Below, piece by piece: positions 16,898 to 64,000 of a stretch of DNA of 64,000 bases. Origin of the DNA: Ornithodoros turicata. Taxonomy: Eukaryota; Arthropoda; Arachnida; Ixodida; Argasidae. The notes under the pieces were generated by a model, which was not told the DNA's origin, did no database searches, and saw only the letters and a program-made list of their open reading frames with translations. Positions within the stretch are counted from its first letter, which is position 1, and the number at the start of each line of letters is the position of its first letter. The stretch is from NCBI RefSeq assembly GCF_037126465.1, contig NC_088206.1, positions 28,212,790 to 28,276,789 of the forward strand, given 5' to 3'. The position numbers and the translations under genes were made by a program.

Positions 16898-17046
16898 GTG
16901 AGCTCCTCAGAGTATACAAATTGCACTTATTTTTATCTGTGAAGGCAGTGGGAAATTCAACAGTTGTAACCAACGTAGTACCCATAGCCAGACCTTATTT
17001 GTAAACACTTTTAGTAGCCCCTCTTTTTAAATTTGCTTGTTTGATA

Positions 17047-18890: not shown

Positions 18891-20030
18891 TATTACTTTT
18901 TAAGTGTAATGTACTGAAAGCTCAGCCAGTCCAGTCTTGGATAGCCTCTCCTCAGGCCCATAACCAAGAACATGTGGCGCCACCGACGATGACACTCTCG
19001 TGCCGTGCCGGCTATAGTTTAGGTGCGCGGGGCTCGCAAAATAAAACCATTCACTTTGTTCTGATCTGCTAGCGGCTCCGGGCCTCTTTCTTTCATGCCC
19101 TCGATTGAGGCCACACATCCGGTGACCCGAACAATGGATGACGCCAGCGCCCCAGAGGGAAGCAACGCCGAGTCGCGTCTTCACGTTGGCCATGTATCCG
19201 TGAAGCTTCCGCCGGTCTGGAATGCCAACCCGAGCGTGTGGTTCTCTCAGGTGGAGTGCCAATTCCACCTCGCCGGAATTACGTCGCAGCTCACACGCTG
19301 CTACCATGTCGTGTCCGTTTTACCGCCCGAGCTTCCCGCTGAGCTCGCCAACATTGTCTGTGCTCCACCTCGTTCTGCGCCATACGACAAGCTCAAAGTG
19401 ACCATTATTGAACGCACAATGGCTTTGGAATGTAAGCGCCTCCAACAGCTTCTTTCCGCTGAAGACCTCGGTGACAGGAGGCCGTCGCAGTTTCTCTGGC
19501 ACATGCAGAACCTTTTGGGAGCCCGAGCTGCGTCCGTCGACGAACCGCTTCTCAAGGAACTCCTCCTTCAGCGCCTTCCTGCAACAGTTCAGATGCTGCT
19601 CACCACTGCTACCAACCTGTCGAATGCCGAACTTGCTGCTCATGCGGACAAAATTATGGAAGTTGCTGTGCCGACCATTGCCACAGTGAGACACCCTGAG
19701 GTGGTAAGCGTTCCTACGCCTTCTCTGAACCCTTCAACCGGTCCGCACGCTCTTGATGAGCTGCGGTCGGATGGTTACCCGCATGACCGCTCTTTTGGCT
19801 GCCGTTCTGCCCGGCAGACGGGACATCTCTGAAGAGCGAACTCCGCGCCAGCAGCACCGTCGGCGCCGCTCTCAGTCCCCTCGACGCCCTCGCTCCACAC
19901 AAACATCTCCTAAGCACTGAAATTTTTGTAGTGTGCTTGGTCTGCGCTGGGCCATAGCCGTGGAACAACTGGGTGCAAGCGGGTCGTGGGTTCCCTACCA
20001 CTGGCCTAGAGCACACGTGTCTCATCGTTT
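18890..20030 (+). mobile_element. Ty3/gypsy fragment: LTR 3' part, primer site and gag
   Basis: The region starts with LTR-like sequence containing AATAAA at 19041-19046. A TGGTGACCC-like primer-binding segment (CCGGTGACCCGAAC) follows at about 19120-19133, then a gag ORF. No pol follows; homology fades after about 19920. It is a decayed 5' piece of an LTR retrotransposon of the mag-like type. Confidence 0.75.
19134..19832 (+). pseudogene. gag: Ty3/gypsy Gag, frameshifted
   Basis: This encodes the structural protein of an LTR retrotransposon particle. I take the ATG at 19134 (MDDAS) because it directly follows the primer-binding segment; the open frame extends upstream to 19095. Motifs typical of mag-like Gag are present in order: 'PPVWNANPSVWFSQVE', 'VSVLPPELPAELANIV', 'PYDKLK', and 'LGDRRPSQFLWHMQNLLG' through 'LLQRLPATVQMLL'. 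The frame ends at 19832. A basic Arg-rich tail continues in another frame to 19918, so there is a frameshift near 19765. No CCHC knuckle is left. Confidence 0.8.
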
Positions 20031-29330: not shown

Positions 29331-29876
29331 CTACCAGTCGTCCTGTGGCACAACATAAGTGTCGTTGTCAACAGCTAGAAACGAGAGCCGCGGCCCGAAA
29401 TAGTCGATGACATAATTGGAACCATCCGCGGGCTTAACTACTTGCATGGAAATGAGCGCAATGTCCACCAGCTGACCAAGGAACATAAACCCTAGGGTGC
29501 AAAACTTTGCCAAACCAATGGCCGGATAACCTAAATAAAAGCGGTCCGCTCCAAACATCCCCAGAAACACAGACAGCAGAAGCGACGTTTCAAAGGAGTA
29601 ACCTCGGGTGTAGCTGCAAGGAATGGGTCGCTCGAAGCTATCTTTGCTTGTGCCCGTGCCGTTTATGCACACAACACCTTCTGCTGGAGTACACTGTACA
29701 TGAGCTACATTGTCCGGTCCGCAATTGCGCGGCTGTTGCGTAGTTGAGTCTATGTCGGGAGGCGCACATATGTACTGGCCCATGAGAAGGGAGCTGCAGT
29801 TGGCCTCATAAACAAGCGTGGAAGAAAGAGGAAAGTGACTGCAAAATATGCTTAAAAGAAACGCTGTCGATATCAT
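29331..29876 (-). CDS. TM2D1: TM2 domain-containing protein 1, single exon
   Basis: TM2D1 is a membrane protein of the secretory pathway. In flies the TM2D family acts with Notch signalling, and the human protein was described as an amyloid-beta-binding protein. The 181-residue product starts at the ATG at 29876; the open frame extends two codons upstream to a TTG. Residues 1-20 are a signal peptide. Residues 27-87 form a Cys-rich lumenal region with 'GQYIC' and the end motif 'RPIPC'. Residues 93-147 are the TM2 domain: two hydrophobic helices separated by the conserved GADRFYLGYP with DRF at 111-113. The tail 'DGSNYVIDYFGPRL' is characteristic of TM2D1. Vertebrate TM2D1 has several introns; this copy has none and no visible poly(A) tail, so it is a compact gene or an old retrocopy. 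A 6-codon upstream ORF overlaps its start. Confidence 0.92.
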   Translation of the reverse strand: MISTAFLLSIFCSHFPLSSTLVYEANCSSLLMGQYICAPPDIDSTTQQPRNCGPDNVAHVQCTPAEGVVCINGTGTSKDSFERPIPCSYTRGYSFETSLLLSVFLGMFGADRFYLGYPAIGLAKFCTLGFMFLGQLVDIALISMQVVKPADGSNYVIDYFGPRLSFLAVDNDTYVVPQDDW

Positions 29877-29893
29877 GACCAAAACGCTGTCAT
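29873..29893 (-). promoter_or_regulatory. Upstream ORF overlapping TM2D1 start (ATGA)
   Basis: An ATG at 29893 opens a 6-codon ORF (MTAFWS) whose TGA stop at 29873-29875 overlaps the TM2D1 ATG as ATGA. Such an arrangement can lower initiation or allow re-initiation at the main start. It is directly visible; translation is inferred. Confidence 0.6.
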
Positions 29894-33288: not shown

Positions 33289-33655
33289 GTTCTTGAGGCG
33301 TTGTGTGATTTTCGCATGGATTTTCGATTGTCCCTCTTCTGTGTTTCAGCCTCAGAGCATCAATTTCAATCGTGTCCTTCCTCCATGATTGGCTCCATAA
33401 CTTGTGGTCAATGACACCTGTATCCCTGCCTGTATAGGAGGCATTGTTGGGCTGTAACTTGCCGCCTTCACCGAGCAGACAGACCAGGACCAGACCGCAC
33501 CTCAGTACACTTCGTACGCTCACGTGCTAACCTGCGCCTAGCGGCCTAGCCATCCATCCGTCCACAATTTAGGTGAAAAGTTATTGGCTTGCTGCGACTG
33601 TGAGACCAGTGAAGCCGTGAGACTTTCGCTTGTGAGTGTGATTTCTGACGTGACC
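33289..33655 (+). promoter_or_regulatory. Upstream/5' leader region of THAP gene
   Basis: Immediately precedes the ATG at 33656 (context GTGACCATGT). The reading frame is open to 33584 but only from a TTG, so this is probably leader. No clear TATA box was noted. Confidence 0.4.
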
Positions 33656-33970
33656 ATGTCGGGCATAACACGGTGTTACGTTCCTGGCTGTACGAACACG
33701 TCAGGCGCTAACCCAGAAGTGACATTCCACAAGCCCAGGGACAGCAACGCAAAACGAATGTGGGAGGCAGCACTCGTCAGCAGACATCCTGATCTACAAG
33801 GAGAAGTAATACATGTGTCTCGCATCTGTTCTTCACATTTTGCGGACGACGCGTACATGGAGACGGATTCTCTGCAAATCCGCCTTGGGGTGCCGCGAAG
33901 AAAGCGGCTGAAGCTTGACGCCGTTCCCACAATATTTCCAGAACGAAGAGAACAACTGTCGTCTGCTGAG
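33656..33970 (+). CDS. THAP-domain exon (exon 1)
   Basis: A 105-codon exon ending at a consensus donor GAG|GTGGGT. It holds the whole THAP zinc finger including the downstream basic 'RRKRLKL' and AVPTIFP. Reading through the donor continues 47 more codons in frame to a stop at 34111, so an unspliced form would also be open. Confidence 0.85.
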
Positions 33971-36900
33971 GTGGGTGACAGCTTTCGTATGTGTCAAATA
34001 GGAGCCCGCAAAAGGAAAAGGGGATGTAGCTTACACACGTTCCTCGGCATTCGTTTGCACGGTACGAGCATTCGCGAGAGAAGCTATAGCATTGGAACAG
34101 CCTGCTATTAATGCTTACTGAAAATGCCTCTTATAGAAGAGGCTGTTGGTAGAGTATATGCGAAAGCATTTAACCCACGGGCGTACCGATAGGGAGGGAC
34201 GGGGCCCCAACTGGAGCTCCAAGGTAGCTTGTGGAAATTGTGCGCTCTTTAGTCATAGGTCGTAATGATCATCCTCAGATGTCATAATAGGAACCTCTGA
34301 ACATCCGCACAGTCCACAATGTCCGACTTCAGAATTAGAGGTGGCATGTGTGCGTGGGCTGGGGGGGAGGGGGGCACGCTTGTCCCCCCTCCCCCCCTCT
34401 GGAAAAAATACTGGGAACGCCCATGCTTCAACCACGCATCGCTGAGAAAGGGTGGTTTTATCCCCTGTACGGTCCCATTCAGTGTAGATTTGCCCCGTAA
34501 ATATGCATGCGAGACACGCCTTCAAAGTTTTGTATTGGAAAAACGGCTTGCATGATTAAAAAGTGATATAGCAGCAGAAAAATAATGGTTTTGTTTACAG
34601 GTCCAGTCTGGTAGCTGCACTGAATCTGCTTCAAGTGGTACGTACAGTAGAAAACTCTCATAACATGCATTTATCTACTTGCATGACAAATACAGCTTCT
34701 CATGAGTCACGAGCTTCGCAAACTGCACTGATGTTCAGAGCTGTTTCAGTTGCAGATATTCCTGTTAGTTATTTTATTCCTGACTGTTATATAAAGTAAT
34801 AGGTATGACACAGTGTTTACATTGTAGACGTGGAAAGGACGGAATCAACAAGCGGTGTTAGTCCATGGTCCACCACCCTGCAATCCATGGCAGCGGCTGT
34901 TCCAGAAAGGGGTGTGTACGCAAACATTTATGGTCGCTATTGATTGAATTAATTTGAATGCATGGGTAATTACTTTTGAAATGTGTGGCTTTTCCTTGCA
35001 AATAATGGAGAACACCAATCTTATCATCTGACATATAGTAGCAGACTGATTTTTCGGCTGCCAATTACTTGGACTTGTTTGATGCTTCGGACTCCCACTG
35101 GGAACGGCGACCTTCACCGTAGGATTAATACATTTTGCGAGCGTTTTTCCAGACATATCGAAGGCTTGATTTTCCAGACCATAACGCTTGCGAAGAAGCA
35201 CCTACACCACTATTTTCAGCACTGCGGTGGCAACTTCGAAACTGCCATTTTAGATTATGCACTTGGATTGATAATTGGAGTCCTAGGCGAGACTACTTTA
35301 AAGCTTCCTAATCTTATACCCCTGTCACACGGTCAACGGAAAATGACAATCGACTAGAAGGCCTTCGGGATTTTATATCGCCTTTGAACTTAAATGGATT
35401 GTCTCGGTGCCACACGGGAAGTTTTTGATGGCCGTTGAAAGCTTCCGCATTTGGCCTTCAAAATGCTGCAGCGCGCCAATCGCGATGTAGCTCCTTCAGC
35501 TTCTTTTCGTCTGGCCACATTGTTTGTTGTTTATTGTTATTGTATTGTTTTGTTATTGTTATATCTTTGTGCTGTGGTTTGACTCCGCGTATCCTCTCGC
35601 AGGCGCCGGTGAAAAAAGCAGGGAAATGCATAATATGCAGACTAAATACAAACGTACCTTGAAAAAAAAAAGAATATGAAGCTTCCAATAAATACAAAAG
35701 CAGAAACCGCGTCAGGAAGTGTCGTCTGATGCAAAGAAATCTCGTTTACAGCGCATTTAAGGCGAAGACAATGTACCCGAGAGTGTAGGGATCCTCGTCC
35801 CGACGGCCTTCGAGACTTCGAGGGAGTTCTGTGGCTCTCCCTTGACCCACTTGACAGTCCGGCCGAAGGCCATCCCGAAACGCCGTGTGGCAGCGCACAA
35901 TTGGCAGCTGAGTCAATTGATAACAGCCCCAAAGGCCTTCGAGATGCCCGTGTGACAGGGGTATTACCTCTAGGTGACACCACGGCGGATTTTGGTAGTG
36001 GGGGGCGCTCTCCAGAGTTTGTTGGTGCACACTGTCGCTGTTTGTCAGCTTTCGACGCTATGGGGGTGTCTGTTGGGTCAATTGTACAGCCGGAAAGTGA
36101 GTCACACTCTGCAGACGATCACCTTGACCGTCAACAACTGTCGACCGCAGGCATGGTGAACGTGTTGTCGCTATTGTGAAATATACGTGACGAACCTATG
36201 AAGCTTGTGCAAATGCAAGCAGATATCATGACACGCAGGCGCCAGATGCAGTAGGGCACTTATTATAGACTTCTTTGGTGCAACTGTGCTGAAATAATGT
36301 TGAATTTAGTGATCGTCAGGCTTTGCGGACTGCTGTATTCCTTTTTGCCGCCTCGTCAAGTCTGGAAAATTGGTCTGCTACTGTACTTTGTTTTCATGGC
36401 TATATGATTTAATCTTAAAGGGGCACTAAGCAGTTTGACAAACATTGTCCAATTATTGTGAAAGAACTCCACATGAAAGAACGCTCACGATTTTGAAATA
36501 TGTAATCATTTACTTCTAGCGAGTGTATTTACCATGAAAAAATGCCAATCAAAGAGCATAATCTGTGTGAGTCTCTCCTTCATCCTTGGAATGGAGTCCC
36601 ATCACGATGTTCCAATGTATAGCAACGCTGCATTCTAGGCGGTGGAGACAGGGGAAGGTTTTGCTATCCCAGCCAATAACGCGTCCCATTGGGACAAGCT
36701 CGAACGAAGGAACCAGTTGCGGGAGCATCACGGTGACTTCGCGGAGCAATACAGGACTCGGAATGTAGTGCGCGCATGAAATGGAACATTGCAGGCTTTT
36801 GGTACGGTTTGAACTGGCTACCTTGGGATTGGCAGGTGGAAAGATATTTAGAATATACCTCACATCTCGATATTACAACAGAGCCAATGGATAAGCGTCC

Positions 36901-48019: not shown

Positions 48020-49090
48020 CTCTGGAAAAGGTCCATTGTACTGTGTGTTTCTTTTCACTTTTTTTTGTTAGTAGTTACGCAAGTATACTGCGTAGTTTTG
48101 ACGATTATGCTTCATGAATGTGTCATTATTACATTACTAAATTTTTTGGACAGTTCGACGTTTCGCTTTGCTCTTATGCGTGAACATTGCCTCAGCTCAT
48201 GGAAAAGGAAATAAATTTTGCTGCTTTTGTTCTACTCCTCGCACTGAAATAAATAATTTAAAATAATTGTACTGTGTGTCTCTTCTTTTTTGTAAGTAGT
48301 TACGCAAGTATGTAAAAGGGAAAGAAATGTTGCTGCTTGTTCTACTCCTCGCACTGAAATAAATCATTTACAATTGTACTGTTTGTGTGTCTTTTTCTTT
48401 CTTTTTGTAAGTAGTTACGGAAGTATGTAAAAAGGAAAGAAATGTAGCTGCTTGTTCTACTCCTCGCACTGGAATAAATCATTTACAATTGTACTGTTTG
48501 TGTGTCTTTCTTTCTTTTTGTAAGTAGTTACGCAAGTATACTGCGTAGTTTTGACGATTATGCTTCATGGATGTGTCATTACATTACCAAATTTTTTGGC
48601 CAGTTTGACGTTTCGCTCCGCTCTTATGCGTGAACATTGCCTCAGCTCATGAAAAAGGAAAGAAATGTTGCTGCTTTTGTTCTACTCCTCGCATTGAAAT
48701 AAATCATTTAGAATAATTGTACTGTGTGTTTCTTTTTTTTTTTCTTTTTTGTAAGTTGTTACGCAAGTATGTAAAAAGGAAAGAAATGTCGCTGCTTGTT
48801 CTACTCCTTGCACTGAAATGAATCATTTACAATTGTACTGTTTGTGTGTCTTTTTCTTTCTTTTTGTAAGTAGTTACAGAACTATGTAAAAAGGAAAGAA
48901 ATGTTGCTGCTTGTTCTACTCCTCACACTGAACTAAATCATTTGAAATAATTATACTCTGCTTCTTTTTTTCCTTTTTTGTAAGTAGTTACGGAAGAAAA
49001 TAATTGTAGTGTGTGTGTGTGTGTGTGTCTTTTTTTTTCTTTTTGTCAGTAGTTATGGAAGAAAATAATTGTACACTGTGTGTGTGTTTC
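48020..49090 (+). repeat. ~115-bp tandem repeat array within inner left arm
   Basis: Units begin 'TTCTACTCCTCGCACTGAAA', pass through 'AATTGTACTGT' and a T-rich tract, and close with 'GTAAGTAGTTACGCAAGTAT' and 'AAAGGAAAGAAATGTTGCTG'. About seven units are present (48230-49090), some partial. The first part (48020-48220) copies the 'GACGATTATGCTTCATG' block of the outer arms. Confidence 0.8.
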
Positions 49091-49097
49091 CTTTTTG

Positions 49098-49832
49098 TAA
49101 GGGTTCCGGGACATTTGATCGAACGTCGTTTGGTCGAAAGCTGTTTGATCGAACGCGGGACATTTGGTCGAAAGGCATTTGATCAAACCCGTTTGATCGA
49201 GACGGCAGCAGTCGTTCGATCGATTCTTTTATTCGTTCGCTTGGAGCGTTGATGAAACAAAAAAGAAGAAAACAACAAAAGAAAGCTTCAGTTCTAAATG
49301 ATGTTATCCCAAGGAATATTTCACTCTGTGTCATCCGCTCGCCCATAAACACATTCCTCATCCTAATCCACCTTTTCGCATCCAGAAGGCGATCCGATGA
49401 TGTGCCTTTGTTTCTTTTTTTTTTTTTCGCTATTTATTTGCATTTGCTGAAACTGCGTTTGCAGGAGCTTTGACAGTAAAATTAGACGTTTAGCTCCACT
49501 CTCATGTCCTCGTGGCTGATACTGTCTCAGCGTATTGCTAAAAGTACGCCCAAACATTTCATTTGGTAAAATGCTCCGCAAACTGGGACAATTTTTTCCT
49601 ACGACCACGCCAACGTGAGACATGTGGTTCGCTGCGTTTTTCCAACATATCTGCAGGAAATATGCAGAAGGTATGAGGGCCTTGGGGAATCGCTTCTTAA
49701 TCTTGTCACGTTGTCTGTGTGTTCTGTTTCATGACCGCTGCCGTTTCGGTCAAACGGTGTTCGATTAAATGGCTTTCGTCCAAATGTTCCGCGACAGCTT
49801 TCGACCAAACGACGTTCGATCCCGGAATCCCT
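49098..49832. mobile_element. Foldback with GGGTTCCGGGA ends and TTTGATCGAACG repeats
   Basis: Left tip GGGTTCCGGGACATTTGATC and right tip GATCCCGGAATCCC are inverted. Both ends hold several TTTGGTCGAAAG/TTTGATCGAACG units. A similar cluster occurs at 47875-47960. No ORF of interest. It marks the centre of the inner palindrome. Confidence 0.7.
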
Positions 49833-49839
49833 TACAAAA

Positions 49840-50411
49840 ACGAAACAGTTTCTTCCGTAACTACTTACAAAACGAAAAAGACACACACAGTACAATTATT
49901 TCAAATGATTTATTTCAGTGCAAAAAGTAGAACAATCAGCAACATTTCTTTCCTTTTTACGTACTTCTGTACTTACAAAAACGAAACACACACACACACA
50001 CACAGTACAATTATTTTCTTCGGAAACTATACTTACAAAAAGGGAAAAAAGAAACAGCGTATAATTATTTCAAAGGATTTACTTCAGTGTGAGGAGTAGA
50101 ACAAACAGCTACATTTCTTTCCTTTTTACATACTTCCGTAACTACTTACAAAAAGAAAGAAAAAGACACACAAACAGTACAATTGTAAATTATTTAATTC
50201 AGCGCGAGGAGTAGAACAAAAGCAGCAACATTTCTTTCCTTTTCCATGAGCTGAGGCTATGTTCACGCATAAGAGCGGAGCGAAACGTCGAACTGGCCAA
50301 AAAATTTAGTAATGTAATAATGACACATTCATGAAGCATAATCGTCAAAACTACGCAGTATACTTGCGTAACTACTAACAAAAAAAAGTGAAAAGAAACA
50401 CACAGTACCAT
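49840..50411 (-). repeat. Inner right arm (inverse of 48020-49090)
   Basis: Inverse complements of the tandem units and of the 'GACGATTATGC...TCATGG' block. With 48020-49090 it makes an inner palindrome centred on the 49098-49832 foldback. Confidence 0.8.
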
Positions 50412-51239
50412 TGAACCTCTGTCTGCAATAAGGGGATAAGTCGACTTATCCTCTTTTTACTATTTTTGTTGCAATGACATCTACATACCAGTATGCACCT
50501 GCCAATGAAAACTTAGGACCTTGTTGCAATTTGTTGGCCCGCTACAGCATGGTAAAAAAACGGGAAATGCATGTGTGTCAATGGGACGGACAATCATATC
50601 AGGCCCCTTTTCTCATTTTGAGATTTTTCGACTTATCCCCTAGAGGTTCAATTATTTTAAATTATTTATTTCAGTGCGAGGAGTAGAACAAGCAGCAACA
50701 TTTCTGTCCTTTTTACATACTTGCGTAACTACTTACAAAAAGAAAAAAAGAAACACACAGTACAATTATTTTAAATTATTTATTTCAGTGCGAGGAGCAG
50801 AACAAATATTTCTTTCATTTTTCATGAGCTGAGACAATGTTTACGCAAAAGAGCGGAGCGAAACGTCGAACTGGCAACAAATTTGGTAATGTAATGACAT
50901 ATCCATGAAGCATAATCGTTAAAACTACGCACTATGGTCGCGTCATCGGAATTTAGGTTACCGGCCAGTCTCAAGGTTGAAGCTCAAAGTTTTGGTGACC
51001 ACACGTGCCCTCACCGAGCGCCAATGGTGCGCCATCTCTTACGCGAGAACAGAGGCTTCAAGGTCGTAGCTCTACCGAAAGAAGCAGACGACAGCGGCTC
51101 ACATATCCCGAGCAGAGCGCTACCGATGCGCCATCTATTAGGCAAGTGCAGAGGCCGCAACGCTCCGCCTCCCGAGTCCTCCTATTGGCGCGCCATTTGG
51201 GGGCGGAGCCTCCCTCGCTCTTGGTCAGCAAAGTCAAGG
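50412..51239 (-). repeat. Right inverted arm
   Basis: Inverse complement of 41549-42428, ending CTCTTGGTCAGCAAAGTCAAG. It lacks the 39-bp insertion. Immediately outside, 51240-51287 repeats the arm tip in the opposite direction, making a ~70-bp hairpin at 51215-51287. Confidence 0.85.
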
Positions 51240-51289: not shown

Positions 51290-51667
51290 CAAGACCAGAA
51301 AACCACTAACATTGCAGAGAACTTTTATTTGCTCCCGAAAAACGTCTGTGAGCTTTGTTTGCACAGTTGGGAACGTGGGCACGATATTTCGTCCATATGC
51401 AGAGAGGGCTTCTAAAGCTAGCTCCTGATTTTTGTTGGCCCCCATGTGCTGACGGAGAACATTGATTGCATCGAGCATCTCGTAAACTGTTGGCATGGCA
51501 CACACTTCTTCGGCGGAGTCACTGGCACTGTCATCGTCGGTTGTGCCTTGCCCGGCGACGATGTCAGTAGTACGAATAGAAGTCCTATAGCCAGGAGCTT
51601 TCTCTAATCCAACAGAGGCCAATTCTAATCCAATTCTAAGCCAAAATCCAGTTGTAATCCAACACAC
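51290..51667 (-). pseudogene. Tigger-type transposase C-terminus
   Basis: The minus-strand frame reads 'DDDSASDSAEEVC', then 'VYEMLDAINVLRQHMG' and 'ALEALSAYGRNIV', then 'QTKLTDVF'. This is the usual layout of a Tigger/jerky-like transposase tail (acidic segment, helix, QTKLTDFF-like end). The beginning of the ORF is repeat sequence, so only the tail is real. Confidence 0.65.
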
Positions 51668-51679
51668 GCCAATTCCAAG

Positions 51680-52080
51680 CCATCTGATTGGTCAGTGCAT
51701 AGCTCTGCCCCTTTATGATAATGAGACAGCTTGGCTTCGCCTCAAATGCTGATTGGTCCGCTCCAAACCTACTGATTGCTGCTTAGTTGACCGTAGCTTC
51801 GCCCCTTTATGCTAATTAGTTGGCTTGGCTCTGCCCACTGCACGTTGATTGGTGCATGCTAAGCCTGCTGATTGGTGAGCATAGATCCGCTCCTTTATGC
51901 TAATTAGCTGGCTCCACCCCCACTTCAGGCTGATTGGTCCATTCTAAGCCTACTTGTCCTGATTGCTCCTCTGCACATTTTCCAGTCTTCTGTCGAACCC
52001 AGATCCGTCCCCATTCTAAGCCTACAGATTGGCCCTTCGCGTTGAGTGGCCCATTCTAAGCCTACCTATCACTGATTGGC
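51680..52080. repeat. CTGATTGG minisatellite-like array
   Basis: CTGATTGG (an inverted CCAAT) recurs about seven times, alternating with 'CTAAGCCTAC' and with 'CGCCCCTTTATGCTAATTAG' (three times). Spacing is irregular, 25-60 bases. The array lies between a Tigger fragment and the Polinton. Confidence 0.7.
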
Positions 52081-52421
52081 TGGAAGATTCGATTTTAATC
52101 GTCTACCCTCCGGTGTTGATAAAGCATGCGCGAAAGCTGTGCTAAAAGAATTGAAGAAAGTTTTCACCTGGCAGGCGGATAATGTGCTAGTATATAGAGG
52201 GAAGCGAATCAACCGCTCAGACCTTGTGGCTCTCGTGAGCTACTTCACACGTCATAGCGCGCTCATCAAGAAACCCAGTCAGTACAAAAAAGTATCGGAA
52301 ATTATAAGCGCTCTGAAAATACCACAAATTGCTCACTGGAGCAAATATGGGCCCTATAGAAAGATCAAGGAGAAAGGGTTAGGTGGAGTGGATCAGTACC
52401 ATCGTTATCACAAGCTCACGC

Positions 52422-54465
52422 CACGGTCCTTTGATACTCTCTCTGGTCACGAAACTCTGCTGGAAAGTTAGCCCAGGGACCGGAGCTGCCGCGCGGCACG
52501 CACATAAGCAACAGGGGTGACGATCGCGTCTGGCGCATCGTAGCCGTACGTTCACGCGTATACTGAGCTGGCTGTTTGGGGTGGTTTTTGGACACAACAA
52601 ACCAAATAAGGTTGCTCAGCGTATTTGAATTTTGTTTTATTTTGCACATGCACGGCTGTGCAGCGACATACAGCTCTCTGTGCAGCATAATCAGTTGCGG
52701 AGAACGCAGGAGAACTTTCAGCGAGCAATGGCTTTCACATACCGACGTCCAAATGGGACTGACCACAAATTTGAAGCGGCGCTTAAGATGTTAGCGATTT
52801 GGTACGTGGCTTTGTTACTTAAAAACGCTGCATGTAGGCAGCATTTATCGCCTCGGCACGTTTTACTGTACGTGTTTCGATCGCGTTTGATGTCTGAAAA
52901 AATGACTCCACCTGCGCTACAGCAATGCACCCAATCATCCTTCATTGCAGATTTACTACTTTAGGTATAGCAGAACTCTACAATGCTGCTATTGCAGTGT
53001 GGTTCCCACACCATGGAGGTTTTAATTGACTACATTTTATGATTTTATTATACATATTGTAACTCGCGAAACAAGACTGATCACAATCAGTGGCACTGGC
53101 AATGAGGACTTTATACCACAGGACAATGGCCATGAATGACTGGGTTTTACATAATCCGTTATGATAATCGTCAAAAACAATGTTCCAGGGCAACTCATGG
53201 AATGACTAAATGTCTTACGGCCTTGGATGGCCAGACTTATTTGCACTATTCGTCGTCAGTGGTGAATCTTTCCTGCCACCTACAGCAGGGCATGATCTGG
53301 GACTAGCCAGGTTAAGCTTCTTGCACTTTTCGCGGGAGAAGAGGTGCAGCTGACATCTTACAAAAAAATGAAGCACTTCAGCTGTTTCCTGGATGTAGAG
53401 TGCACAGCATCCCACGCTAGCACCCAGACATATGACATACATGTGAGGTACATGTGACACCTTGCAGGTTGCACAGACCTGTGCCAAATTTCTCTGCAGA
53501 GTGTGCAGCTTCTTTTGTGTGTCCCACAGCTTCCGCTTTATTCGGTCAAGTTCTGCTTTTGTGCAGACATGTGAATCAGTTTGACATGACTTGGTGCAGG
53601 CTTCATTGCAGGCTAGAAAAGATAAATACATGAATGCGACTTATTATGGCCTCTTGTTGGCTGCATTGCAGTCATGTGTTACAACAGACAAGTTTCAATG
53701 GGTTTCTATGAATAGCAACGCACCTTCTGTTTCACCTGATGTGCCCAGCTGTCAGTCTTGAACACAGAGTTCTCCTGTTCTAACGTCGACGAGAGGTGCC
53801 GAGCATGTACCAGCACTACTCATCAGTTTTCTTTTCGAGGACTGATTCGCTGCTGACAGCCTCCTCATTGCACGACCTTTGGGCTTTGGGTTGCTCAAGC
53901 ATTGCGGACACCCGTAAAAAATTCATGGCCCGGCCGAGGACGCAGTTTTGGCGCGAGGCATTGCGACCTTCTCTTTGCTTGCGGTGCCATTCAGAGCTTC
54001 CCGTGTCACGAGGAATTCGTCCACTCTGACGATGTCGGACGCATCAGAGTGCTTTTCGCACACATGTGTCCACTTTGACCCAAAGCTGAAACTCGAGTCC
54101 TCTTTCCGAGGTATCGAACACTTCGACTTCTCTCGCTCGATGGCATCGTTCGGCAACGCGTAAAACGATTCCTTTACACCAGAATTATCATATCCCGAGC
54201 GACATGCCGGGACACAACACGTCTGCGGCATGCAGAGATTAGCCGAAATCTATTCACAGTTCAAGGATGCACGTGGATCTCAGGAAGAAGCTTCTGCACT
54301 GGTCAAAATGTAGGCAGAAGAAGAGGTGTTTACCCGTATCAGCTGGCGTTTTCTCCCGACGTAGCGACACGCGCGCTTTCGCGCGGCGGCGGTTCGCCCT
54401 AGGCAAACCTGACCGATTGTTCCCCAGTGGAGTTTCGTGACCAGAGAGAGTATTAAAGGACCGTG
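52422..54465 (-). mobile_element. P/THAP-type element, 2.04 kb
   Basis: Inverted ends CACGGTCCTTTGATACTCTC and their complement (about 36 bp, two or three mismatches) enclose minus-strand THAP and coiled-coil exons. The 8-bp flanks GCTCACGC (52414-52421) and GCTCATGC (54466-54473) differ by one base. The flanking DNA reads as one Polinton integrase when the element is ignored. This fits a P-superfamily transposon; most of the catalytic region is missing. Confidence 0.75.
53560..54231 (-). pseudogene. THAP/coiled-coil protein of the P-type element
   Basis: The ATG at 54231 opens a THAP domain: CCVPAC for the first Cys pair and 'HVCEKH' for the last pair. The usual HF is HS and the invariant Trp is replaced, so zinc or DNA binding may be lost. 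The frame stops at 53923 by a TGA where the family has a codon before 'IF'. A second exon (about 53615-53465), after TTTTCTAG, encodes a coiled-coil 'ELDRIKRKLWDTQKKLHTLQ'. No catalytic domain is recognised. Confidence 0.65.
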
Positions 54466-55139
54466 CTCATGCGCGGAGAAGCCATCGACCAGCTGAAAAA
54501 AGATAATTACACCCTTCACAAGCCGGTGAAGAAAAAATTTAAGCGGCGCTCTATCATCGCAGCTCACGTGATGGATTTGTATCAGGCGAACCTCCTGGAT
54601 ACGCGTTAATATCAGAAATTTAACAAGGGCTACAAGCACATCTGAACGGTCATAGATACGCTATCGAGGTACCTGTACACGGTCCCCATTCACACAAAGC
54701 GCCTGCAAGACATAAAGAAAGCTTTCTAATGAGTTTTTCATCATGGAATTCTAAAGAATCCTCACCGATCGTGGAAGCGAATTTTGGGGTTCCCCCAATC
54801 GTCAGTATCTTCAGTCACAACTAAATCATTATGCAGCAAAAGAATGCAGCACGTAGATCTGCATACAGGTTTATCGGATGATGTACATGTTAAAGCAGGA
54901 GTCCCCGAGAGGTCCGTTTCTGGGCCTCTCTTGGTTTTAATTTATATTAATGACATTGAATCTTGTGTTAATGGTCCTGTTACGATTAGATTATTCGCAG
55001 ATGATTGTTTAATATATTGCCCTATCAGAAATGTTGCTGATCAAAAATTACTTGCTGGATCTATCGAAATGGTGTGGTGATTGGGGAACGCATATTAAAG
55101 TAGCACAGAAGTCATTTTTAACACCCAGTTTTCTTCTTA

Positions 55140-55795
55140 TAAAACTGTTAAGTAGGCCAGTAAGATGCACCATGCGAAGTAATTTACACCACAGAGTCAT
55201 AATTATCGCAGAAATTGAATTTAAAATACGCCGCAAAAAGCGACCGTGCGCAACGGTTGTGAAGAGCAGTACCAGCCTGTAATCTGCCTGGAACCTCGCG
55301 CTGACGCTATAAGGAGAACGCTCGGTGATTGGCCTAGAGAAATGTTGTCTGCTACCCCGCTGTCGTCTGCTACTGGGCTGTTCGGGGTTCTGATAAAGCC
55401 TTTTTCCTTGCTCGGTAATGCTTCGGCCGCTCCTTCTATCCCCAATTCTCCGGAAAAATTGGCAAAACAGGTTTACGGCGGCAAAGGGACAAGACGCTGA
55501 CCCCCACTGACCGGCGAACCAGAACGAGTCTCCTTATACCGTCATCGGTGACGTGCCATCATACCTCCTCATCCTCGTTATAGCTGGAGGGGCGAGTTAA
55601 GAGTGAACGCGCGGAGCTATGTTTATGTGAGCTTTTTTTCTGGGAAACAAATTGCACTCATCAAAACCTTTCGCGCTATTCGGTATAATGACACACACAC
55701 TTTCATCAGATGTCTTAATCTGAAATTTTTTTGGATGGCCCTCTGTACTCCTTTAACTGTCGGAAAACTGTTTTCTCTCAGCTAACAAACAAAAG
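55140..55795. other. Unassigned insertion in the LINE
   Basis: LINE coding similarity stops near 55140 and resumes near 55800 ('IQGHKLIRADSFKYFGN'). The segment between has CCAAT-like and GC-rich pieces but I could not find its ends or family. Confidence 0.45.
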
Positions 55796-56370
55796 ATCTA
55801 CAGCATAGTTTGAATATGGTATCCAGGGACATAAATTAATTAGAGCTGACTCATTTAAATATTTTGGTAATAATGTGGCATGTAATTTGCAGTGGGACAA
55901 GCACGTGAATGAAATATGTTTGAAGGCTACGAACAATCTTTGGTTACTTAAAAGAAAGCTGAAGTTCAGCTCGAGAGATGTGAAACTAACTGCATACGAA
56001 ACATTGATCCGTCCTCTCTTGGAATATGGTAGTATAGTAAGGGACCCATACAAAAAGAATCTGGCGGCCCAAATAGAAACAGTTCAAAGGTTGGCAGCCC
56101 GTTTTATAATGTCCAACTTTTGGGGAACTGACTCTGTATCTAATACGTTAGAAGTCTTGCAATTAGAAAGCCTAAAAAGCAGACGTAGATTAGCTAAATT
56201 TGTTTTTTTTTCTGCTATATCACAATAAGCCAAAGCTCAATAGCCAGAGCTATTTAGAATCTTTATCATCACGGTCCTTACGAGCATGACATAGTAAGGC
56301 TGTAAAACCATACGAAGCAAGGGTAGACTTGTTCAAGTATTCATATTTCCCACATACAATCACAATCTGG

Positions 56371-57670
56371 TGTGACGTCCCTCGCCGTAGCCGTAAGGGG
56401 GACGGAGCACAAAATTACCGAAGAAAAGGGGATACACTCAACGTGGGCACCCGCAGAGGCGAGAAGGAATGACAATCACACACTTCGTTAACAACAACAA
56501 AGCGTGATTTAATGAAAGCTCAACTGCAACGGTGTTATTCACTTTACATGAAAGATTACAGGAATCGCGACAATGATACACATGAGATAAAGCGGACCCA
56601 ACTTAACTATATCGCATGATATACTTCAAATGAACAAGTATACAAAAACGCGCGGGAAATGAATAGCGAATCATGTACAAACGAGGCAGACAGAACAAGC
56701 GGCAAGAGTGACTGACCCTGATTTTGCGCACCCCGACGACACCACATCTTCACCAGGCCATGGACGATGGCGTGGCAGACGAGCTCTGAAGATGACTTCA
56801 GCAGTGACCTACACGGCCGCCTTTCCATGCTGTGGCTTTGGGTTGCTGCTTCCGTCGATCTTCATCCGCTCTGGTCTCCATTCTTGGTCCACGGCCGGGT
56901 CAAACAATAGCGAAGACGGCGACTTGGCGGCAGGCCTACCGTCCCACTTGGAGGCTCGGTCCCAGGAGCTCGGCTGCCGCCCTCGTCGATCCGTCTCTTC
57001 GCTCGCCACATCGTCGTCGGGTGCACCTCTTTCCGGTCAGTCACCGCCAGCTGGGCCTCCTGTTCGTAACTTCGGTTGCCCGGACGTCAGCGCTGGTGGA
57101 AGGACACTTCGGGGACGAACCCTCAGGTCGAAGGTGGGTTCCATTCATCAAGGCGCCGCCGTTGTCCATCTCCCTCCGTCCGGGCTCCCGCTCTGGATCA
57201 CATCTCGACGACTCTTTTCTGGTTCCGACCCTCGACGCAAACTACCACTGACTGTTTATGCGACTGTCCCACTCTCTCCCTCTCTCGAAGTCACCCCTGG
57301 TTTATATAACCTTCCCGCGCCATGACACAGCCCGGGTCAGTTACGTACGCCAAACCAAAAACACATGTGCGTCCGAGACTGCATTCGAAGAACGCTGTAA
57401 TTGCCACTGCTTCTGTTAACATACAGTTATGCTGCCCTCTACACAAAGCCGCCTCTAGGGGAAAACAACACTGTCTAAGGGGGAGCAGATGTCACCCTAC
57501 CCACGGAGAGACACTGCGCACATGCCAACTAAAGTTTTATGGTTTTCAACTGTGGGGGAACACGAGCTCTCGCAACCGTTTGGAAGTAACAGGGCGCGCT
57601 GTCCCTTTGATGCTAGATAAATGGAAAAAGTCTGTGAAACCAATTATATCGAGAAACTCGGACCGTCACA
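56371..57670 (-). mobile_element. Solo LTR, 1.3 kb
   Basis: Starts TGTGACGTCC and ends GGACCGTCACA, with CTGG on both sides (56367-56370, 57671-57674). Removing it and one CTGG restores the LINE frame from 'TITIW' into 'NALPQRV'. On the minus strand it has a TATATAA-like box near 57303 and ATTAAA near 56508, so it reads leftward. No internal coding region remains. Confidence 0.75.
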
Positions 57671-58524
57671 CTGGAATGCATTACCTCAACGTGTAATAAC
57701 TGTGCAAAATGTCTCTGCCTTCATGTGAAACCCTGAGCAATACTGATTTAATATAATGTTAAAGCTATAATGTATTGTGGTCCCTCAATGAGATTCTTTG
57801 ATTTGTTAATTTTGTTGTTTGTGATTAGTGTTATGATTAGTGATTATGGTAGTGTTGAACTCCCCTGTAACGGTCCCACTTGGGACTAACAGTATTGGAA
57901 AAAAAATTATACAGCACAAAGTTGAATGAAAGGGGCCTCCTGCGAACGTGTACAAAGAACAATTAGAGAAAGAATAGCCAGACATTTCACTAGTACGGGG
58001 AAGTTTAATTATATGAACGTGCTACCAAGATAGTGGCAGACTATAACAACTCTGTACATTCCGTCACGGGCGAAAAGCCGAAAAACGTGAACTCCTGGAA
58101 TGAAGTAGCTCTGTTCAACAGATTGAATCATAAGACTACCTCCGCACGAGAGCAAGTATAAAATAGGGGACCAGGTGATGCTCGAGTTAGATCGCGGCGT
58201 GTTCGCCAAAGGCTACGATCAAAGGTGGACGGCTGAAGTGTTCGAGGTATCGCGAAAGAGAAGCACCGATCCACCCGTAGTGTACGTGAAAGATTTGACG
58301 GGAAAAGAAATATTGGGATCATTCTACGAGCAGGAATTGCAGCCCGTCCATCATCTTTCCTCATACGATAAGCGACTCATATCAATCCGGAGTGATTAGA
58401 AAGAAGAAAATTAATGAGGTGCACTACTTGGTTCGCTGGTTCGGATATGCCAAAGATCGAGATTCTTGGGTGCCTGCCAGCGATGTCAGAAAATGAATTT
58501 TACGTGTAGCTCTCGAATGCCAGC

Positions 58525-59003
58525 ATGGACCTGCTCCCGTCCAACACGCTGAACGGCTTCACGATCGCGTTAGCTAAGCCGCTACACCTGGATGATTCGT
58601 ACGTTGTCAGTCTGAAGAGATTTTCCATTCCGAATAGCTTCCTGAACGTGAACCAAGCGCCGGACAACCTGATAACGCTATCAACGGAGAACAGGCAAAC
58701 AAAACAGCTCACGCTCGAAGATACACACTATTGAATAAAATATTCCCCGAATATGGGATAGAGTGGACTTACGATGAAGATCGCTATGTGTTTAAGCTAT
58801 CATCGTGCATGTGTTCAGTGAAATTAATCGACAGACTGCTGCATCTCACTTTTGGAATAGCCGATGTCGATGGAGAAAATCTGGAGGGCAGCACCAGCAC
58901 CGTACGCACGGTCCCAAACGTGTTACCGCTTGCGGAGGAAAGAGGCATTATTATGCGAGTTCGCCGAGTGATACCGATCAATAACGATTTAATTTTAGAT
59001 TGA
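58525..59003 (+). pseudogene. Polinton ORF (LPSN-type), frameshifted
   Basis: Starts MDLLPSNTLNGFTIALAKPL and follows the layout of a conserved arthropod Polinton protein of unknown function (LPSN near the start, hydrophobic beta-rich middle). The first frame ends at 58734; the next (58731-59003) continues the protein, so one frameshift is present. It is then cut by the SINE-like insertion at 59000. Confidence 0.6.
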
Positions 59004-59290
59004 TTGATTGATTATGTGTTTAATGGCACAAAGGCAACAAAGGCCATAGAGCGCCAAAACTATGGTGAGTGTGTCGGAGATGATTATGGGAAAGATGTGA
59101 GAGAGAGTGTGTGGTAGTTAAAACCTATCTACAGGTATGAGCGATGAGATTGACCAGGATAAGAGAGAGAGGAGGAGGACGATAGCAAGCGAGCATGGCA
59201 GTTAAAAGCTATCTACAAGTGTGACAATGAGATATTTACATGAGGAGTTCGGTGATATTGGATAAAAGCGGAGCAATGCTTATCATCTAC
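59000..59290 (-). mobile_element. SINE/LINE-tail insertion, 291 bp
   Basis: Flanked by a perfect 13-bp duplication ATTTAATTTTAGA (58987-58999 and 59291-59303). Read on the minus strand it ends 'TTTGTGCCATTAAACACATA' plus a short (ATCA)n tail, which is the way many arthropod LINEs and their SINEs end. No pol III boxes were found, so it may be a truncated LINE 3' end. Confidence 0.85.
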
Positions 59291-59303
59291 ATTTAATTTT
59301 AGA

Positions 59304-59910
59304 ACCCCGATCGCTAATTACAGACACATTCAACAAATTCGAATTCAACGAAGCGATGAACGATACAGAATCAGGGGTGGAATACAAGGACAACACTTAC
59401 TCGCTCTCTCTCCCGGTGAATTTCAACTTGTCAACAGAGTTCCTGGGCCTCATTCAGGTGAGGCATATCCTCGTTGAAGGGTCCCGAAAGTGCATCACGT
59501 GTAATTCGATAGTGAAGACGTACCGCATTCACATAAACTCTCGAGAGACAGAAACTCGGCTCATTTCACTTCCACGAGATTACTACAAAACACCCGAAGC
59601 TCTCGTGAGCGCCGTCAATGAGCGTCTTGCAACCCGAGGCTCCCTCGCGTACGATGCGTGGGTGAGGAGGTGCTCGCGCTGAGCTTGCGAGGGAACGTGT
59701 CGGTTACATTATCCGATTACTTTGCGTACCTTCTGCGAAAACCGTATTTACCAAAAATGATACGGGCGTCGACGGGCTGTATTATGATATAGCGGATCTC
59801 GTCACGCCCTCCGTAGTAGGAAACGAGCGCCATCCGATACTGACATTAATTCAATTCGTTTACGATAGAACGAAAGAACAGAGTTTCTTCCCATTCAGTA
59901 CTTTTAGTTA
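59304..59910 (+). pseudogene. Polinton ORF, continuation
   Basis: After the insertion the frame continues ('MNDTESGVEYKDNTYSLSLP', 'YYKTPEALVSAVNE'). It shifts near 59640 and ends around 'VGNERHPILTLI' and 'FFPF'. The pieces match the C-terminal half of the LPSN-type Polinton protein. At least two frameshifts. Confidence 0.6.
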
Positions 59911-59958
59911 GTGCAACGCGAAATTTCCTCAGTTACCGTCTCTATATACGACGACAGG

Positions 59959-60112
59959 TGTCACGTAGTGGACTTTACCTGAGGTTTTATTTTGACCACC
60001 TCAGCCGTTAGCGGCTCACACAATAATGATCACCATCATCTCTTCCTCGTCTTTCCTGTTCAACGCTCATCCTTCGTCGTCCTTTTTCACACCGGGCCCC
60101 AATCCTGTCACA
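59959..60112 (-). mobile_element. Ty3/gypsy 3' LTR (154 bp)
   Basis: Starts TGTCACGTAG and ends CCTGTCACA, giving TG...CA ends on both strands. It lies just downstream (minus strand) of the integrase stop and contains AATAAA on the minus strand near 59988. The partner LTR is not in the window. Confidence 0.65.
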
Positions 60113-60833
60113 TGCCGGCGCCAAGAATGGCATCGTCCCGATGTCAACAGTTTTACAATAAAAATATGAAGAATAGCTCTACACAATGACAATGACTATG
60201 TACAATGACGGCACTGGGTGGCGTGTCATGTCTGTGTGAAGTAAGAGACAGGTTGAAAGTACGGTTTCAACTTCTCTACGTGGACGAGGTCTGTCCCTCT
60301 TCCATCTCCGTACTCTACCTCGTAGACGACAGGCAAAATCTGTGACAGGATACGATGCGGGCCTTCGAATACAGCCTTATTCTTTATCCCCACTAGCGGG
60401 CTCTTCAGCAACACCAGCTGTCGTTTTCCAAAGACGACGTCGCGGCGGTGTCTGTCAAAAAGGCACTTCTGCTTTTCTGGGGCCAGCTTCGTGTGCTTTG
60501 CGGGCAACTTACGAGCTCGGTCCAGGCTCCTTCGCACAGTTGCTGCATAGTCTGACGTCTGCTCAAGGTCAGCCAGTTGTCTATGATTGTAGGCTACGTC
60601 CAATGGTAGTGCAGCATCACGTCCATAGACTGGGTAGAAAGGCGTGTGATGCGCATTGTACTGATAGCCAGTGTTATAGCAGAACACGACGTAGGGTAAA
60701 ACGTCAGGTGATTTCTCGGATGTTTCTGCCTCAAGAATTCTAATCATGGTCTTTAAGGTCTTATTGGCTCTTTCGACTAGTCCGTTGCCAGCCGGGTGGT
60801 AAGCAGTAGTGGGAGAGTGGCGTACCCCACGAT

Positions 60834-60853
60834 GGGGGGGGGGGGGGGGGGGG
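60834..60853. repeat. 20-base poly-G tract in integrase
   Basis: Twenty consecutive G interrupt the integrase between the second Asp and the Glu regions. The frame differs on the two sides. Length may be unstable or misassembled. Confidence 0.85.
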
Positions 60854-61805
60854 CTCTAAGTACTTTTCGGTGGATCTCGCCATCATCTGTGTCCCTCGGT
60901 CCGTTATCAGCACTGCAGGGCAACCGTGTATCAGGACGATGCGTTGTTCGATGAATTCCTGGACGGTCCTTGCCTCGATGTTCGTAACAGCTTTGGCTTC
61001 AACAAACTTTGTGAGATAGTCAATGGCTACAATGACATACTTGCACAGACGAGCTGGTTGTAGTGGACCAACGATGTCGAGTCCTACCGTGTGGAATGCG
61101 GTATCTACTTCCACTGGCTGGAGCTACCCAAAGGGAGCAGACTGTGTACACTTCGTCCGCTGACACAGGTCACAACTTTGAACAAGCGTTTGATGTCATT
61201 GTACATCTTCGGCCAGAAATACCTTTCTTGGACACGTTCAAATGTACGACAGATGCCCATATGGCCACCGAATTTCCCGCTGCGGTATTCACGTAGGACG
61301 TCTGACCGAGCGCTGCCCGGGTGACACAAAAGGTACCGTACCAACAGAGGACCAGCGTCTTTCTTGTAGAGGACGCCGTCAAACAAGACGTATTCTTGCT
61401 CACCCTCTTTTTCTCCTTTTTGGTGCCACGTATCCCGGCAAGTATATCGAGGTACTTCTCGCAGAACGAGTCCTTTTGCTGGTTGGTCTGGATGGCCGCG
61501 GATGTGACTTGAAGTATATCGCAGGACACAGCCAAGAGCTTGTCCTTCCCCTTAGTTGTCGAGTGTGGCGTACGCGATAGGCAATCAGGGCCTGTGAGTG
61601 ACTCCTCATTATGGATCACTTCGAAATCGTACTCTTGAAGTGCCAATGACCAATGCAGCAGTCTCTGGTTCCCCTCTTTGTAGCGAAGGAGCCAACACAG
61701 AGCGTGATGGTCCGTAACTACTTGGAATTTTCTTCCGATGAGTAATGGGCGCAGTTGGTCAAGAGCCCATTTGATGGCGAGTGCCTCGAGCTCTGTGGAC
61801 GCATA

Positions 61806-62679
61806 CCATATTTACTCGTGTAAGGCCCGCACTTTTGTTTCGGAATTTTGAGGAGGTGCGGCTCTTACACGAAACAGGCTCGTCAGAACCGCAACTTCGC
61901 CACGGTGGCTAATCAGAGTAACGTAGTAATAACTCGTAATAACGCTGTAATAACTCGTCAAGCAAACATTTCTTTACCAACGATCGCAGACCTTAATAAT
62001 TGTCTTCGTCATCATCTTCGCTCGCGGTATCACTTGCGCTGTCGTCGTTCGCGTCAGCCCAGAGGTGGTCGTCTTCGGTGCCGTCCATGTTGTTGGAGAT
62101 TCCAGTCACCTTGAAGCTCTTTATGATGGTGTCGAATGACACGGAACGCGGAATGTCCATGTGACGGGCGATGGCGAGTGCTTTTACGCGTATCATTTCG
62201 GTTGATACCGCATGACCATTGTTCCTCGTCCTTTTCACGTAGTCCACAAGTTGTGCTTCGAGTCTTGGGATCTTGCACTGTTTTCCACGTAACGCTTTTC
62301 GGTTGCGGCTGGTCCCGGCGAGCTGTTCTGATGTATCCAGGAACGCACACACTTCTCGTCGACGCCAAATCCCCGACCAGCTGCACGCTTGCCGTGCTCT
62401 TCAGCGTACTGGACGACTCGTAGCTTGAATGCTGCAGTATACGCACTTAGACGATTCTCCATGACGCAAACTGACGATCCGAAACTTGCGGGAAATGCGC
62501 GACAGAGCTCACGTGGGAAAGGCGTGGTCTAGCGTCTGCAAATGGATGGTGCGATGGAGAGTGGCGGGTGGGTGGGTGGCGCCCCCTTTTTGCTTCGTTT
62601 TTTTTTCTTCAAAAAGTTCAGCTCAAAAGTGGGGGGTGCGGGCATTACACGAGGGCGGGCCTTACACGAGTGAATACGG
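61806..62679 (-). mobile_element. pogo-type deletion derivative, 874 bp
   Basis: Ends CCATATTTACTCGTGTAAGG and the complement of CCGTATTCACTCGTGTAAGG, flanked by TA (61804-61805, 62680-62681). Removing the element and one TA restores the gypsy RNase H codons 'AEENYASTELE'. On the minus strand, 62462-62235 encode a psq-type helix-turn-helix ('YTAAFKLRVVQYAEEHG', 'VDEKCVRSW'). 62300-61993 encode a CENP-B-like second domain and an acidic tail ending EDDDEDNY. One frameshift lies near 62330. The whole DDE catalytic domain is absent. Confidence 0.85.
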
Positions 62680-62797
62680 TAGTTTTCTTCCGCAGGACGA
62701 AGGGAACGTCTGAGGTAGATAACTGGCTGAAAATTCCCAGTGTCGTCTTCTTGCAGAAGAATCGCGCCAAGGGATTTCTGGGGCTGACTTCAGCGTC

Positions 62798-64000
62798 ATG
62801 GACAGCGAGGCAAAATTCAAGGCATACCAGTCCTCCCTCGAGGAAATTTCTCGGTTGAATAAAAAAGTCGAAGCATTGGAACAGCGAGTCGCTGAGAAAC
62901 CTGAAGATCCTTCTTCTGAGCTGCTGTCCGTGCCGTCGGACCAAGAGAGTTCCGCTGTACAGAGCACGCAGCAGGCTATGCACGATCTCATTTGTGGACT
63001 CTTGGCTCCCATCGTACAGCGCATTGAGCAGCTTGAGCTTACTGTCTGCGGTCGCAAAAGCCCAGCTCCTGACGCTCCGCTGGTGAACCCTGGGCCTCGG
63101 TGAACCCTACTCGGCCACCGTCTTCCGCGCATTCAGCTTCGGCCAAGGGGCAAGTAACAGACGCCACCGAGGCGGTATCATCGCCTACACAGCTTTCCAC
63201 AGCTGTGGTGAACGCTCTCCCAGTATTTTCAAAAGACGTTCTGGCTAGGATTCATCAGACGGAATACTGGATGAAAATATATCGCGTTCCCAACAACGTA
63301 GCTGTGCCGCTCATCGTTCCGAAAATGCCGTCCAAAGATTTTGCATGGATGAGGTACCAGATGGGAGTGAAGAAGCTGTTCACCTGGAACGATGTCAGCT
63401 CGGCCCTTCGATGTCACTATCACCCCAATAAGCCAGCAGAAGTGGCACAGAGGATGTTTTTCAGAGGCCAGTGTCCAGGAGAATCTTGTGTGGACTACGC
63501 CATACAGAAGCTTGAACTTATGGATGAATGTGGCTACTCAGGAAGTGAACAGGAAAAATGTGACATCATCCTGGGTTCACTCTCCAGTCAGACAAAACGT
63601 CGATATTTTGATCGCACATTCGCTTCACTGGATGAGTTGCTGAATTCATTCCTGCTGTGCGATAGGGTTGGCACTTCTCAAGAAACGTCGAAAGATAAGA
63701 CGCAAGCTTCGTTCACGGCTCCTTTGCATCGACTTGTAGACACTACAAAGTCGAGCTCTCCACAGCGACAGGAAGGGCCTCAGCTGTCTAAAGTCGACAA
63801 CGCCCATTCGAAGAAGAGCCCCCGCCAGAATCGTCGCTCGTCGGCAGCGAGTTCAAAAGCAGGCACCACGAGGGGTCATACCGATGTTCAAAGGATCTGC
63901 CTCAACTGTAAGAGAAAGGGACACTTTGTCACTAGATGCCCCGAGCCTCTGTCACAGCAATTCCTTGACTGGCAAGCGAGCTTTCTTACAATGCCTTCTC
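62798..64000 (+). pseudogene. gag: Ty3/gypsy-type Gag, runs off right edge
   Basis: The ATG at 62798 opens MDSEAKFKAYQ, with a coiled-coil-like N-terminus, to a stop at 63101-63103. From 63100 another frame continues without stop to the window end. It has a capsid-like stretch ('MKIYRVPNNV', 'FRGQCPGESCVDYAIQKLEL') and one CCHC zinc knuckle at about 63898-63939 (C-x2-C-x4-H-x4-C). The shift coincides with a near-duplication GGTGAACCCT at 63082 and 63099, 17 bases apart. It abuts the minus-strand pol without an LTR between. Partial because the window ends. Confidence 0.75.

Follow-up and report, generated by a model that had tools for sequence, protein, structure and literature searches.

The window analysed here, 64,000 nucleotides (nt) of the genome of the soft tick Ornithodoros turicata (C6:28212790-28276789), contains in its right part a Polinton-type transposon that is broken up by other transposable elements. 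We hold with high confidence that this stack is a Polinton hit by later elements, with boundaries that could be checked against paralogs and an order of events that can be read in part. All comparisons were made within the 1.07-gigabase assembly from which the window derives, and loci labelled L with a number are copies fetched from this same genome. The features of the stack, with positions counted from the first letter of the window, are the following.

51566 to 52086, plus strand: left end of the Polinton, with a terminus starting AGTAGTAC plus divergent short tandem repeats.
52087 to 52348, plus strand: 3' part of the open reading frame (ORF) upstream of the integrase, 268 amino acids (aa) long in L010; it abuts the terminal region directly.
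52349 to 52421, plus strand: Polinton integrase, piece 1 (start set by eye from L010; 94.7% mean identity, 19 copies).
52422 to 54465, minus strand: P/THAP-type DNA transposon of 2044 base pairs (bp), with 42-nt terminal inverted repeats (TIRs), a THAP domain and a 7-nt duplication.
54466 to 54843, plus strand: Polinton integrase, piece 2, with stops (85.9% mean identity, 19 copies).
About 54844 to 57905, plus strand: 5'-truncated retrotransposon without long terminal repeats (LTRs), that is, a long interspersed nuclear element (LINE), interrupted twice; recognised by relatives, by 19 of 19 empty sites and by an RVT_1 match below the gathering cut-off.
55099 to 55752, no strand assigned: TTAA-flanked element of 654 bp inside the LINE, with TTAA at 55095-55098 and 55753-55756.
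56371 to 57670, no strand assigned: solo LTR of 1300 bp inside the LINE, TGTGACGTCC...GGACCGTCACA, with CTGG at 56367-56370 and 57671-57674.
57917 to 58490, plus strand: Polinton integrase, piece 3, the C-terminal chromodomain region (90.2% mean identity, 19 copies).
58491 to 58986, plus strand: next Polinton ORF, first part (86.2% mean identity, 19 copies).
59000 to 59290, minus strand: element of 291 bp resembling a short interspersed nuclear element (SINE), or short LINE tail, with a TCAA-like repeat tail and a 13-nt duplication.
59304 to 59958, plus strand: next Polinton ORF, second part (82.2% mean identity, 19 copies).
59959 to 64000, minus strand: left portion of the large insert, about 11.6 kilobases (kb) in all, with Gypsy-type integrase domains, which passes the window end and reaches L029:7577.

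An earlier note on this DNA had described a Polinton with four inserts, namely a P/THAP element, a LINE, a solo LTR and a SINE-like element. All four lie near the places it gave, but its anatomy was wrong in part: two layers, the TTAA element at 55099-55752 and the insert of about 11.6 kb from 59959, had been missed, as had the Polinton terminus and the loss of an internal stretch described below.

By its sequence relationships the outer element is classified as a Polinton/Maverick. As in that class, its sister copies carry an rve integrase with a chromodomain and a polymerase-B ORF, together with a candidate adenovirus-protease-like ORF and termini that begin with AG; unlike it, the window copy is without the stretch that bears the ATPase-like ORF, its genes are broken, and its right terminus was not seen. 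The integrase ORF of L010 (1035-2078, 347 aa) matched the Pfam domains rve (E 1.4e-8) and Chromo (E 5.3e-7), both above cut-off. The protease-like ORF of L031 (1845-2279) matched Peptidase_C5 with E 0.0027, and the ATPase-like ORF of L030 (6554-7171) matched AAA_18 with E 0.0061, both below cut-off. The polymerase ORF, encoded on L031 and thus on a sister copy outside the window, had no Pfam polymerase match of its own; a search with its residues 500-1178 yielded 4247 homologs, several among those listed carrying PF03175 DNA_pol_B_2, and 96% identity to an Ornithodoros turicata protein, in support of a tick host. Searches of public viral contigs with two Polinton pieces and a protein search with the piece 59356-59682 returned zero relatives. 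PDB searches with the integrase tail, a reverse transcriptase (RT) piece and the polymerase gave nothing useful, and PHROGs gave nothing convincing (best E 0.016).

Polinton termini have the form 5'-AG...CT-3' and are flanked by a 6-nt target duplication. The terminus in the window starts at 51566 with AG, a start that it shares with four other copies, L030, L032, L033 and L034 (AGTAGTATAGA...), to which it was matched by eye; L035 consists of N at this place; the repeat region of the left end gave 67-78% matches to L030 and L032-L035. The gap left by the ATPase-bearing stretch falls at 52086/52087. A tandem repeat of about 130 bp was also observed in L036 (939-2559), where the Polinton match turns repetitive; it had no match to the polymerase gene farther along L036.

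Immediately downstream of this gap, comparison with L010 changed the gene boundaries. The segment 52087-52348 corresponds to the end of the separate 268-aa ORF of L010, near whose end the integrase starts; in the window the frame of this upstream ORF and the integrase frame merge. The interval 52084-52470, earlier called integrase throughout, therefore deserves the name from about 52349 but not before. Because the integrase starts at about 52349, at the end of a separate upstream ORF, the P/THAP element is placed by this comparison in the first part of the integrase gene, and the earlier claim that a THAP-type transposon hit this gene was borne out.

The evidence that carries the interpretation is the state of the same sites in sister Polintons. 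Among 354 candidate places the best 40 were scored, the window itself included, and the best 19 of the 39 others were read (L010-L028). All 39 were 88-90% identical to the window across 57918-58998. In each of the 19 loci the window pieces 52087-52421, 54465-54832, 57915-58999 and 59291-59962 were found collinear, on the same strand and as one stretch, with the exceptions that the match to the first piece begins only at 52175 in L016, that the match to the last piece begins only at 59358 in L027, and that in L018 the first piece is followed by another insert. In 19 of 19 copies the sites of the P/THAP, LINE and SINE-like inserts were free of these elements, and the same copies align to one another past the 59959 site. 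At the P/THAP site a single CTCACGC was displayed for 10 of them, those that bear the motif, and the remaining nine were likewise contiguous by alignment coordinates; L027 has a deletion starting a few bases past the SINE-like site. Such a result is not given by chance. The earlier note had proposed to look for the same Polinton lacking each insertion, and such copies exist for these three inserts, as do LINE copies lacking the LTR.

Some inserts might instead be common to a Polinton sub-lineage and have multiplied with it rather than hitting the window copy alone. Older sisters of the window's subfamily might share an insert and lie beyond the 19 others read from the best 40 of 354 candidates, but all 19 copies read were without these inserts, and the insert near the P site in L018 is a different one and not the P element; we therefore regard shared inheritance as quite unlikely. 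This other insert (L018 about 643-1143, about 480 bp) lies in the integrase gene about 18 bases downstream of the P site and showed no P-element match.

The P/THAP element ends in TIRs of 42 nt that are 93% complementary, the ends of its family being CACGGTCC, and encodes on the minus strand a THAP domain (53923-54231, E 1.8e-5, above cut-off). It is flanked by CTCACGC (52415-52421) and CTCATGC (54466-54472). Among the best 40 of 519 candidates, again including the window, 20 other places were 82-88% identical along 1.8 kb or more, and in 13 of them the match extended to both ends within a few nt. Three of seven other copies fetched (L003, L004, L007) have an exact 7-nt duplication; in the other four the search pattern missed one or both ends. 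The window copy differs by 7.7% from the majority of eight copies, the others by 3.8-5.9%. The element is about 2 kb long and probably non-autonomous. It resembles the P superfamily in its THAP domain, its terminal inverted repeats and its short target duplication and departs from classical P in duplicating 7 nt; classical P duplicates 8 nt, and 7-8 nt is the range for the superfamily. Kolobok was considered as a home for the element and set aside, since Kolobok duplicates TTAA and this family 7 nt. A second and better THAP ORF lies apart from the stack, on the plus strand at 33584-34108 (E 7.5e-14).

About 375 bases of Polinton separate this element from the 5'-truncated LINE, in agreement with the 390 bases noted earlier. 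The RVT_1 match of the LINE was weak (E 2.7e-4, below the gathering cut-off) and covered only the later part of the domain, which is why we call the element 5'-truncated. Its duplication of 11 nt reads ATTATGCAGCA at 54828-54838 and ATTATACAGCA at 57906-57916, and its 5' border is placed to within about 5 nt. For a 614-bp piece of the LINE, for which the best 40 of 45 candidates were scored, we found 10 other full-length matches with 88-91% identity. Copies of this LINE have many different starts, and most matches of its last piece reach its final base.

Both elements within the LINE could be delimited by uninterrupted LINE copies. At the solo LTR, which has TG..CA ends, 17 LINE copies show an overlap of exactly 4 nt between the two LINE pieces, at the place of CTGG; in three more the alignments end early and so leave an overlap of 2-3 nt. 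A gap of LTR size was present in none of these copies, nor in the three with small gaps mentioned below. The insertion of a solo LTR into the LINE, already claimed from the window alone, is thereby confirmed. Among the best 40 of 316 candidates for the LTR, 39 other places had 86-95% identity, and in 33 both ends were present. The 4-nt duplication was exact in nine of 15 fetched copies, off by one base in L048 and absent in L039, while L038 and L050 were without one searched end. The remaining two, L042 and L045, belong to a single element as its LTRs; they lie 2.5 kb from each other, have the same outer flank (CTAG) and differ by 0.5%.

At the TTAA site the two LINE pieces abut exactly in 10 LINE copies and agree within 1-2 nt in two more. 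The element inserted there belongs to a very numerous family: among the best 40 of at least 3000 candidates, 39 other places were 95-97% identical over its full length, TTAA to TTAA, with ends within a few nt, and an additional match stood at 79%. This extreme abundance together with the high similarity of 39 others to the window copy makes a recent burst of the element likely. Its TTAA on both sides and its very high copy number recall non-autonomous DNA transposons that duplicate TTAA; the known classes are miniature inverted-repeat transposable elements derived from piggyBac or Kolobok. The window element differs from these in its weak inverted-repeat ends.

In the neighbouring Polinton gene, the SINE-like element is flanked by an exact target duplication of 13 nt, ATTTAATTTTAGA, at 58987-58999 and 59291-59303. 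A relative in L006 (1019-1322) shares 83.6% identity with 59010-59290; like the window element it ends at base 59290, and it has the same 5' end. The interrupted ORF is a single open frame in L022, so that the earlier report of a SINE-like insertion into a neighbouring Polinton ORF holds for the ORF, whereas the SINE label draws on tail and size; these fit a SINE, but the element may also be a short LINE tail. Neither a tRNA nor an Rfam family reaching the gathering score turned up in the window. Farther right, the Polinton stops at 59959 and resumes at L029:7577, beyond the window. On the minus strand, the large insert in between encoded two Gypsy-type integrase domains, Integrase_H2C2 (E 5e-13, above cut-off) and Integrase_p58_C (E 1.3e-5, just below).

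Several observations weigh against this interpretation or parts of it. Three target duplications are imperfect: that of the P/THAP element in the window has one mismatch, that of the LINE one mismatch and possibly an indel, and that of the large insert reads CAGG on the left and CACGG on the right, with 1 nt missing. The large insert has ends that align with each other over just 79 positions (85%), and its LTR structure is therefore only partly shown. The inverted-repeat ends of the TTAA element agree at 9 of 11 nt, and 904 of 5000 shuffles were as good. In the LINE copy C3:24835 the pieces at the TTAA site are separated by about 380 nt, and in three LINE copies small gaps, the largest about 32 nt, replace the 4-nt overlap at the LTR site; these copies give no support to the respective insertions. 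The SINE-like family was matched in one other copy, L006, among the loci fetched. The putative P label draws on the THAP domain, the TIRs and the 7-nt duplications, and neither the right terminus of the Polinton nor its 6-nt duplication was found in the 20 kb past the window.

To an assembly artefact, with different repeats wrongly joined, we give next to no credence. No part of an assembly is harder to get right than its repeats, and L035, of the same Polinton family, does contain a run of N, but the stretch 51500-60300 contains zero N, the P, LTR, TTAA and SINE-like junctions coincide with the ends of other copies and with short target repeats, and the Polinton is back in register after each insert. 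RT-like coding can, as judged by eye, be followed again beyond both inserts of the LINE.

Later insertion into a Polinton thus being the preferred reading, the nesting gives the following order. The P/THAP element, the LINE, the SINE-like element and the large insert are siblings that lie directly in the Polinton and came after it; the TTAA element and the solo LTR lie in the LINE and came after the LINE. The nesting depth is three, from Polinton to LINE to solo LTR or TTAA element, and not four as stated earlier. Nesting is silent on the order of TTAA element and LTR, and since P, LINE and SINE-like element are siblings it gives no order among them, for which reason we rejected a ranking of these three by nesting. 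The earlier note had held that the relative order can be read directly from the interruptions; this stands for the Polinton as older than its inserts and for the LTR as younger than the LINE, but not for P, LINE and SINE-like element among themselves. That a complete order of P, LINE, SINE and LTR could be read from a four-level stack is accordingly highly improbable: the four inserts named are present, and the LTR is indeed located in the LINE, but the depth of three and the position of P, LINE and SINE-like element each directly in the Polinton already contradict it, and divergences within the families yield only a rough order for these three.

The divergences agree with the nesting: distances to relatives are about 3-5% for the two elements in the LINE and about 8-16% for LINE and P. 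The solo LTR has a median of 4.2% from 15 relatives, the TTAA element 3-5%, and the LINE 9-16% depending on the piece. These figures are distances to relatives and not ages. Dating the Polinton by its distance of 10-12% to the other copies was rejected, as these form a young group with pairwise identities of 95.2-99.6% (median 98.2%, 171 pairs for the 19 copies); the distance therefore reflects the separation of subfamilies and not the time since insertion. L022, whose integrase gene is split in two ORFs, shows that the sister copies are not all intact, and long uninterrupted ORFs are present among them: a polymerase of 1178 aa and an ORF of 431 aa (a capsid by position only) in L031, and the 347-aa integrase of L010. 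The similarity of the copies suggests that this Polinton family was amplified recently in the soft tick.

The course of events that best fits these data is as follows. A Polinton of a large soft-tick family lost the stretch with the ATPase-like gene and was a target for later insertions. Its integrase gene was entered by a THAP/P-type transposon and by a 5'-truncated LINE. The next ORF took up a SINE-like retroelement and, at its end, a large element that carries Gypsy-type domains. The LINE in its turn received a TTAA-type element and an LTR element, the latter now a solo LTR. The boundaries, the empty sites in paralogs and the partial order are shown by the data. We infer that this Polinton was dead before the insertions, that the loss of the ATPase-bearing stretch preceded the insertions, and that the solo LTR arose by LTR-LTR recombination. 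More tentatively, the relic could represent an older branch of a recently multiplied Polinton family, and these Polintons may be mobile or virus-like now. If so, this older copy was the target of at least six other elements, of which four entered the Polinton itself and two its LINE.

The locus is a new and unusually well-bounded example of an ordinary genomic fossil. A literature search at title and abstract level returned no publication on this stack. The program REANNOTATE reportedly uses interrupted elements to infer the history of transposition. Nested transposable-element insertions and the analysis of interruptions are already established, as set out in PMC2517846. Our use of interrupted elements for transposition history is alike; it differs in concerning one tick locus with a Polinton as outer host, and introduces no new principle. 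What the locus adds is a paralog-checked example of Polinton, THAP-type, LINE, LTR and TTAA-type activity in one soft tick lineage, with no concept changed. Of wider value is the large and little diverged Polinton family behind it.

Elsewhere in the window, positions 48032-50943 are occupied by diverged repeats of about 115 bp, arrayed in both orientations and including arms of up to 233 nt that are 95% complementary; the array has a 73.7% match in L030 (2813-3017). An ORF at 19095-19829 contains DUF7041 (E 3.7e-21), a domain that is common in gag-like proteins of retrotransposons. Two fragments are likely parts of host genes, one of a gamma-tubulin complex component at 16417-17001 (E 7.7e-19) and one of a TM2-domain protein at 29331-29882 (E 3.2e-15).

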